Below are positions 31,119-31,488 of a DNA stretch of 64,000 nucleotides, piece by piece. Both the position numbers and the translations under genes were made by a program. The notes under the pieces are model-generated. The model was not told the origin of the DNA and did no database searches. It worked only from the letters and a program-made list of their open reading frames with translations. Positions within the stretch are counted from its first letter, which is position 1; every line of letters starts with the position of its first letter. This DNA comes from Bacteroidia bacterium (GTDB lineage: Bacteria; Bacteroidota; Bacteroidia; Chitinophagales; UBA2359). The stretch covers positions 1 through 64,000 of the forward strand of contig JAUHXA010000016.1 of the NCBI GenBank assembly GCA_030427245.1, read 5' to 3'.

Positions 31119-31297
31119 TGGAGACAGCTTCATGCTTAGCTTTAGCCTACATGAAAGCTCCTGCGGGGAATGACACCTCGTTTTGAGAGCTGTATCAGCG
31201 TAAGTGTTTCGCTCCACAGCCTCAGTCTTAAACGTTCTTTTCCAATCGTTGGGTAGGTAACTAACCTAGTGCGACAGTTCGATTCTGTCCCGATGCT
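31119..31297 (+). ncRNA. structured RNA ending in a tRNA-like 3' half (T-arm and acceptor strand)
   Basis: Read as RNA, this stretch forms three hairpins: 31120-31161 (12 bp with bulges), 31164-31180 (5 bp, 7-nt loop) and 31185-31223 (8 bp with one bulged A, capped by AGCG/CGCT). Then follow 31233-31246 and 31261-31267, which pair with the downstream element. Then comes a canonical T-arm: GACAG (31273-31277), loop TTCGATT, CTGTC (31285-31289), and the acceptor strand CCGATGC (31290-31296) with T at 31297 in the discriminator place. No matching 5' half lies upstream; it lies downstream at 31420. I do not recognise the RNA family. Confidence 0.7.
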
Positions 31298-31418
31298 CTC
31301 TTTCTAAATGAAAATTTGAAATGAAAATCCAAATGAAAAATATTTTCTATTTTTTTATATTCATTTAAGACTTTTTGAACTTGAACTTGAACTTTGAGTT
31401 TGTATTTGAGTTTCTAAA
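31298..31418 (+). repeat. AT-rich linker joining the two tRNA-like halves
   Basis: This 121-nt stretch connects the acceptor 3' strand to the acceptor 5' strand. It is AT-rich and its right half (TTGAACTTGAACTTTGAG and following) belongs to the same dispersed repeat family as 7680 and 30991. I see no open reading frame or tRNA part in it. Confidence 0.5.
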
Positions 31419-31488
31419 AGCATCGGTAGCTCAGTGGCAGAGCAAGGGTGGCAAGTAAACTCTTATCAAATAGTATTGAAAAGAAACG
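31419..31488 (+). ncRNA. tRNA-like 5' half (acceptor strand, D-arm), pairs with upstream half
   Basis: GCATCGG (31420-31426) is the exact complement of CCGATGC at 31290-31296. Then come T8-A9, the D-stem GCTC/GAGC (31429-31432 and 31440-31443) with loop AGTGGCA, and A at 31444, all canonical for tRNA. AGGGTGG (31445-31451) then pairs with CTAACCT (31261-31267) with one G-A mismatch, in the place of the anticodon stem. Further out, 31475-31488 pairs with 31233-31246 in 13 bp with two single-base bulges. No normal anticodon loop is formed. Together the halves make a circularly permuted tRNA-like molecule. Confidence 0.68.

Follow-up and report, generated by a model that had tools for sequence, protein, structure and literature searches.

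A putative RNA–protein system that pairs DUF7873 with a circularly permuted tRNA-like RNA in Bacteroidota, actinobacteria and phages

YrlA, a bacterial Y RNA, has a topology that corresponds to a circular permutation of tRNA (PMC11472068; PMC8394870), and it serves as a tRNA mimic that tethers a protein (PMC8394870). We analysed a 64,000-nucleotide stretch of DNA, hereafter the window, which comprises positions 1 to 64,000 of contig JAUHXA010000016.1 of a Bacteroidia bacterium (Chitinophagales; genome G000 of our set). Just downstream of a gene coding for a DUF7873 protein, it harbours a predicted non-coding RNA, part of which is a permuted tRNA-like stretch. To our knowledge, the Y RNA bound by Ro60 was until now the only natural RNA to function as a circularly permuted tRNA mimic, and it is also the only one in the papers that we found. 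The permuted topology itself is already known; we found no counterpart, however, for its association with DUF7873 or for the leader, the tRNA that follows and the tandem arrangement. The locus looks like an undescribed RNA–protein system, in which a structured non-coding RNA of ~490 nucleotides probably works together with DUF7873 in the manner proposed below.

The gene and the permuted module that follows it are composed as follows.

30241–30990, plus strand: DUF7873 gene (PF25283; Pfam E-value 3.5e-78), 249 aa; it has the RNA as a neighbour in most homologous loci
31233–31267, plus strand: 5' strand of the basal stem that replaces the anticodon arm; pairs with 31445–31488
31273–31289, plus strand: T arm, GACAG-TTCGATT-CTGTC; 100% of cells paired and double changes at 5/5 pairs in 27 sequences
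31290–31297, plus strand: 3' strand of the acceptor stem, CCGATGC+T; covaries with 31419–31426
31298–31418, plus strand: linker closing the acceptor stem, AT-rich and unusually long here
31419–31426, plus strand: 5' strand of the acceptor stem, A+GCATCGG; pairing and covariation
31429–31443, plus strand: D arm, GCTC-AGTGGCA-GAGC; 100% of cells paired and double changes at 4/4 pairs in 27 sequences
31445–31488, plus strand: 3' strand of the basal stem; pairs with the 31233–31267 side

A first-pass annotation of the window, made from its sequence, had described a T arm and an acceptor 3' strand placed before the acceptor 5' strand and the D arm, and these elements are present at the positions that it gave. 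All pairs form in the T stem (31273–31277/31285–31289, 5/5), in the D stem (31429–31432/31440–31443, 4/4) and in the acceptor stem (31290–31297/31419–31426, 8/8), the last including the additional A31419–T31297 pair that had been proposed. The AGGGTGG/CTAACCT helix with one mismatch was also recovered (31261–31267/31445–31451, 6/7 pairs), and the outer helix (31233–31246/31475–31488) comprises 13 pairs with two bulges. The unusual length of the linker had been overlooked: it measures 123 nt between the 7-bp strands, compared with 6–40 nt in most relatives and 203 nt in L118. Taken alone, the window has an unexceptional folding energy (z −1.2) and cannot settle the question.

Comparison with homologous loci supports the structure well. 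In 27 aligned modules from bacteria and phages, 97.3% of the cells in the T, acceptor and D stems are paired, whereas the proportion falls to 34.6–48.3% when the same stems are slid by 1–3 columns, in agreement with the earlier contention that a chance arrangement is unlikely. Double changes are found at 17/17 pairs, with 146 double-changed cells compared with 43.6 in shuffles. The rows of this alignment were chosen partly by acceptor pairing, and a motif-only test, in which the halves were picked by their T- and D-loop motifs and pairing was demanded of the T and D stems as well, is therefore less biased. When each D half was taken with the nearest upstream T half, acceptor pairing reached 6–7/7 in 25 of 27 loci, compared with a cross-locus mean of 3.7/7, with 22 distinct acceptor strands represented. 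In the 12 homologues from Bacteroidota, pairing reaches 100% in the T stem and 99% in the acceptor stem, with double changes at 4/5 and 7/8 pairs, respectively; compensatory changes in 31290–31296/31420–31426, which the first-pass annotation had named as the evidence to look for, are thus present.

The two outer helices are less conserved pair by pair in these 12 homologues (71% and 45.5% of cells). Over 29 loci together, the segment immediately 5' of the T arm and the one immediately 3' of the D arm form a significant duplex (Fisher p 9e-11, an optimistic value as some loci are related), in line with the proposal that a long stem stands in the place of the anticodon arm. We regard the exact 13-bp helix of the first-pass annotation as one portion of a basal stem that varies between copies. 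Its strands and bulges are there, but its pairs are weakly conserved and it does not reach significance in the window alone.

The association with DUF7873 is also well supported. The upstream gene, which had been missed together with the phage relatives and the tandem modules, codes for a protein that scores 263.1 bits against PF25283 (cut-off 27). Its orthologue in G017, with 60% identity, is followed by the same layout with the acceptor GAGGGAG/CTCCCTC, and a 28% identical copy in G010 is followed by the permuted layout with the acceptor GTGCCGC/GCGGCAC. Thus, other acceptor sequences replace the GCATCGG/CCGATGC of the window in both genomes. Public genomes scanned with an alignment of DUF7873 contributed 20 bacterial and 11 viral loci, and tblastn searches with DUF7873 yielded 4 actinobacterial and 73 phage records, the latter from Vibrio, Rhizobium, Gordonia, Klebsiella, Serratia, Arthrobacter, Rhodococcus, Pseudanabaena and Microcoleus. 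We scanned for modules composed of a T arm, an acceptor, a complementary acceptor and a D arm. Such a module follows DUF7873 on the same strand in 15 of the 19 Bacteroidota loci with sequence left, in 8/10 viral contigs and in 14/15 phage or actinobacterial loci. The pair occurs in Bacteroidota, Streptomyces and Nonomuraea and in phages of Rhizobium, Vibrio, Klebsiella, Gordonia, Arthrobacter and cyanobacteria. It is carried on chromosomes, plasmids and large phages, and permuted modules are located in phage tRNA clusters.

Four Bacteroidota genomes harbour DUF7873 without an adjacent RNA (L094, L098, L099 and L100), and each of them has, at other places, stand-alone copies that carry the leader (L162; L150 and L160; L153; and L154, respectively). 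Among 298 genomes of the order, the leader and T-arm signature was found in G000 and G017, both of which have DUF7873, the only other hits being two chance matches. The family is sparse, as a search of 395 genomes of the phylum with PF25283 matched only G000.

The pairing of unlike acceptors beside the same gene bears on another explanation of the locus, in which it would hold what is left of two truncated tRNA genes lying in tandem. Acceptor strands of neighbouring genes do match where similar tRNAs stand in tandem (L060, L077). Nevertheless, we find this explanation hardly credible, as the same layout stands beside DUF7873 in several phyla and in phages, with unlike acceptors that all pair, and no partner halves flank the module. 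Loci in which each half has its own normal partner, which the first-pass annotation had put forward as the sign of two truncated genes, were not seen next to DUF7873.

Relative to the RF02553 consensus, the module has the organization of YrlA (crystal structure 6CU1; partner Ro60/Rsr), with a permuted T arm, closed acceptor stem and D arm set on a basal stem. Both RNAs also have a long stem in the place of the anticodon arm, and both adjoin the gene of a protein partner, which is Ro60 for YrlA (L084, L169, L172 and L179). Binding to Ro60 and PNPase is another trait of YrlA. The first-pass annotation had stated that the RNA matches no known kind; its topology is that of YrlA, a comparison that it had omitted. 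A diverged Y RNA of the YrlA family that binds Ro60/Rsr would explain why the T arm, the closed acceptor hairpin and the D arm succeed one another in an identical order and why a long stem replaces the anticodon arm (PMC11472068). However, we consider such an identity quite improbable. No match to Ro60 (TROVE, PF05731) was found in the 100%-complete window genome, whereas PF05731 was found in G007, G017, G010, G003 and G191, and the neighbouring protein is DUF7873 instead. The RF02553 model matched neither the window region (E up to 10), where the long linker lowers any score, nor L050, L051, L083 and L001 (E up to 5), of which L051 and L083 have short linkers. The Ro-type motif GYCGTAGANNAGNGNTACTTCG, common to the true YrlA copies of the order and exact in L151, L169, L170, L172 and L174, has 7/18 mismatches at best in the window RNA and 6–8 in nine relatives. 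Furthermore, the present RNA has an extra leader, a complete tRNA and a terminal hairpin, and some copies have tandem modules and an encoded CCA. True YrlA copies adjoin Ro60 genes in the same order of bacteria (L169, L172, L179 and L084), and L151, considered as a stand-alone copy of the new RNA, is YrlA and was dropped. A genome from the family to which the window belongs has a Ro60 gene followed by YrlA-like RNAs (L084:1–330, L139).

None of the RNA catalogues searched contains the RNA. ARAGORN and Rfam at the gathering score reported only a neighbouring tRNA-Gly at 31499–31571, and ARAGORN, one of the searches that had been suggested, assembled no tRNA from the permuted halves. A permissive Rfam scan added chance-level matches and an 18-nt match to a tmRNA T arm (9.1 bits, cut-off 47), and Rfam 15 has no family for the permuted RNA at the DUF7873 loci examined. 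In these genomes, the YrlA model mostly matches tandem tRNAs, as do many of the matches of a model that we built (R1). R1 scores below about 56 bits were therefore not used as evidence, and above this value the neighbours were inspected. Three of the top R1 matches are true YrlA RNAs beside Ro60, and the window copy scores low (20.8 bits) because of its long linker. A DNA similarity search in 60 relatives yielded only AT-rich repeats, and distant blastn matches in phages, assessed by how much of the query they covered, were only ordinary tRNAs.

Permuted two-piece tmRNAs of alphaproteobacteria, betaproteobacteria and cyanobacteria likewise have the 3' half before the 5' half and a tRNA-like end carried by a long stem. 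In contrast, the present RNA has a covarying D stem, and a search for tag frames with an ALAA-like end detected none in the window and one chance-like frame among 28 loci. The tmRNA covariance match at the window is limited to the T-arm hit mentioned above. With an ordinary tmRNA elsewhere in the genome (G000:C157:13067–13446) in addition to the D stem and the lack of a tag, on which the first-pass annotation had based its rejection of tmRNA, we set this identity aside.

A related proposal is a chargeable RNA in two pieces. tRNA enzymes would cut its linker at both acceptor ends, as happens with permuted tmRNA genes, CCA would be exposed or added, and the aminoacylated product would act on the ribosome like a tagless tmRNA, or as a charged decoy. 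The order of the halves is that of permuted tmRNA genes, and tRNA enzymes could be expected to accept the TTCGA T loop and the complete D arm. A CCA is encoded directly after the discriminator position (NCCA following the acceptor) in 15 of the 37 first modules, which is suggestive only. We regard a charged RNA as unlikely, since CCA is absent from the window copy and from 9/10 second modules, 27/28 loci have no tag-like frame, and the window genome, like Gordonia phage Phendrix, has its own tmRNA.

Permuted tRNA genes of some algae and archaea, whose transcripts are circularised and cut to yield ordinary tRNAs, also share the order of halves. That the present locus is such a gene is very improbable: rejoining the halves does not produce a complete tRNA with an anticodon arm or loop. 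Instead, the outer segments form the basal stem, which leads into further conserved elements, and the module belongs to a longer conserved RNA, with its leader, found in bacteria and phages. GOLLD and ROOL are large, ornate structured RNAs associated with phages and often located near tRNAs, features that recall the present RNA. It differs from them by its lack of an Rfam match, its permuted tRNA module and its dedicated neighbouring protein.

The conserved unit spans about 31118–31604 and comprises the leader, the permuted module on its basal stem, the tRNA-Gly and a terminal hairpin. The extent given by the first-pass annotation was thus too short. The elements outside the module are as follows.

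31118–31232, plus strand (approximate 5' end): leader, conserved in 12 homologues
31499–31571, plus strand: tRNA-Gly(GCC), complete but unusual, with acceptor GTTTTTA; 63 bits
31576–31604, plus strand: terminator-like hairpin with a purine loop GAAGGAAAG and a T run; 10-bp stem, −18 kcal/mol, z −4.1

The leader contains GGAG (31120–31123) and CTCC (31212–31215) elements, the conserved motif UUUCGCUCCACAG (31207–31219) and NAG repeats every 6 nt. In the leaders, an AG–AG distance of 6 occurs 29 times, compared with about 6 times at neighbouring distances, and 6 is the strongest lag of identity excess (t 6.7). RNAalifold proposed that the leader pairs with the stretch that follows the D arm, but we did not adopt this helix. 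Most Bacteroidota relatives harbour a tRNA at the same place, with varying anticodons, followed by the hairpin, whose loop motif AAGGNNAG recurs. In two of the loci (L109:6954–7033 and L051:2574–2653), the adjoining tRNA apparently has an 8-nt anticodon loop, for which ARAGORN reports the four-base anticodon 'actg'.

Two permuted modules in tandem are found in several actinobacterial, Klebsiella-phage and cyanophage copies. In Klebsiella phage Centimanus, an annotated tRNA-Stop(tta) (L132:3507–3590) coincides in part with the T half of the second module, whose T arm is at 3564, and it is probably a misread permuted module.

Based on the topology, the encoded CCA, the 6-nt repeats and the location in phage tRNA clusters, we infer the following function for the favoured RNA–protein pair. 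Once transcribed, the RNA would have as its core a circularly permuted tRNA mimic made of the T arm, the acceptor closed by the linker, the D arm and the long basal stem. DUF7873 would bind the RNA, most likely at the leader with its 6-nt repeats. The basal stem would hold out the tRNA-shaped end to proteins with an affinity for the elbow and acceptor of tRNAs, candidates being processing, modification or decay enzymes, or tRNA-attacking toxins, and the acceptor may be opened in some copies. The ribonucleoprotein (RNP) would recruit or decoy tRNA-handling factors, both in bacteria and during infection by large phages. Carriage by phages and tRNA mimicry would fit a decoy against tRNA-attacking defences. 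More tentatively, this might be a new bacterial and phage RNP in which DUF7873 assembles along the 6-nt-repeat RNA with its one or two permuted modules; tRNA-processing enzymes would open these and expose CCA ends, to intercept or recruit the tRNA machinery.

Several points weigh against the proposed partnership. Both the transcript and its binding by DUF7873 are predictions, and the protein has no recognisable RNA-binding fold or solved relative. Its predicted model is confident (pLDDT 87.8); structure searches with it returned no credible relative (best E 0.02 with Foldseek and 0.017 in the viral library), and the best VIA-align hit, to TolC (Z 6.0 at rmsd 16), leaves no convincing relative in the PDB. 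Rows for Cascade subunits, considered in view of the 6-nt periodicity, were weak and were set aside as noise. PADLOC reported nothing for the window protein and gave one relative only an E of 0.048, and we found no mention of DUF7873 in the literature searched. Two near-identical viral contigs (L122, L123) have DUF7873 with no module found by the scans, and a Microcoleus phage locus (L135) has a T half and a matching acceptor with no clear D arm. Lastly, the outer basal stem is not significant in the window copy alone (p 0.32). In the same Microcoleus phage locus, a HEARO RNA (RF02033, 129 bits) lies downstream of DUF7873, after the T half (L135:3348–3557).

If the proposal is correct, the RNA would represent a second permuted tRNA mimic, unlike Y RNA in sequence outside the module and associated with a different protein. 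It would provide a candidate role for DUF7873 and an explanation for unannotated gaps in phage tRNA clusters, and it makes the use of the tRNA shape without an anticodon testable.

Some neighbouring RNA genes deserve mention. In Gordonia phage Phendrix, the tmRNA gene (L130:563–1091) lies in the tRNA cluster that also contains DUF7873 and the permuted modules. Chromosomes of the family of the window genome harbour arrays of unusual tRNAs, some of them low-scoring (G000:C35:151858–161000, corresponding to L077 and L082, and G003:C561, corresponding to L085). Finally, a small stand-alone permuted module, with no tRNA, DUF7873 or Ro-type motif nearby, immediately follows a dnaK-like gene (L176:1500–1620; G280:C10:210640–210714) and perhaps represents a further small family.
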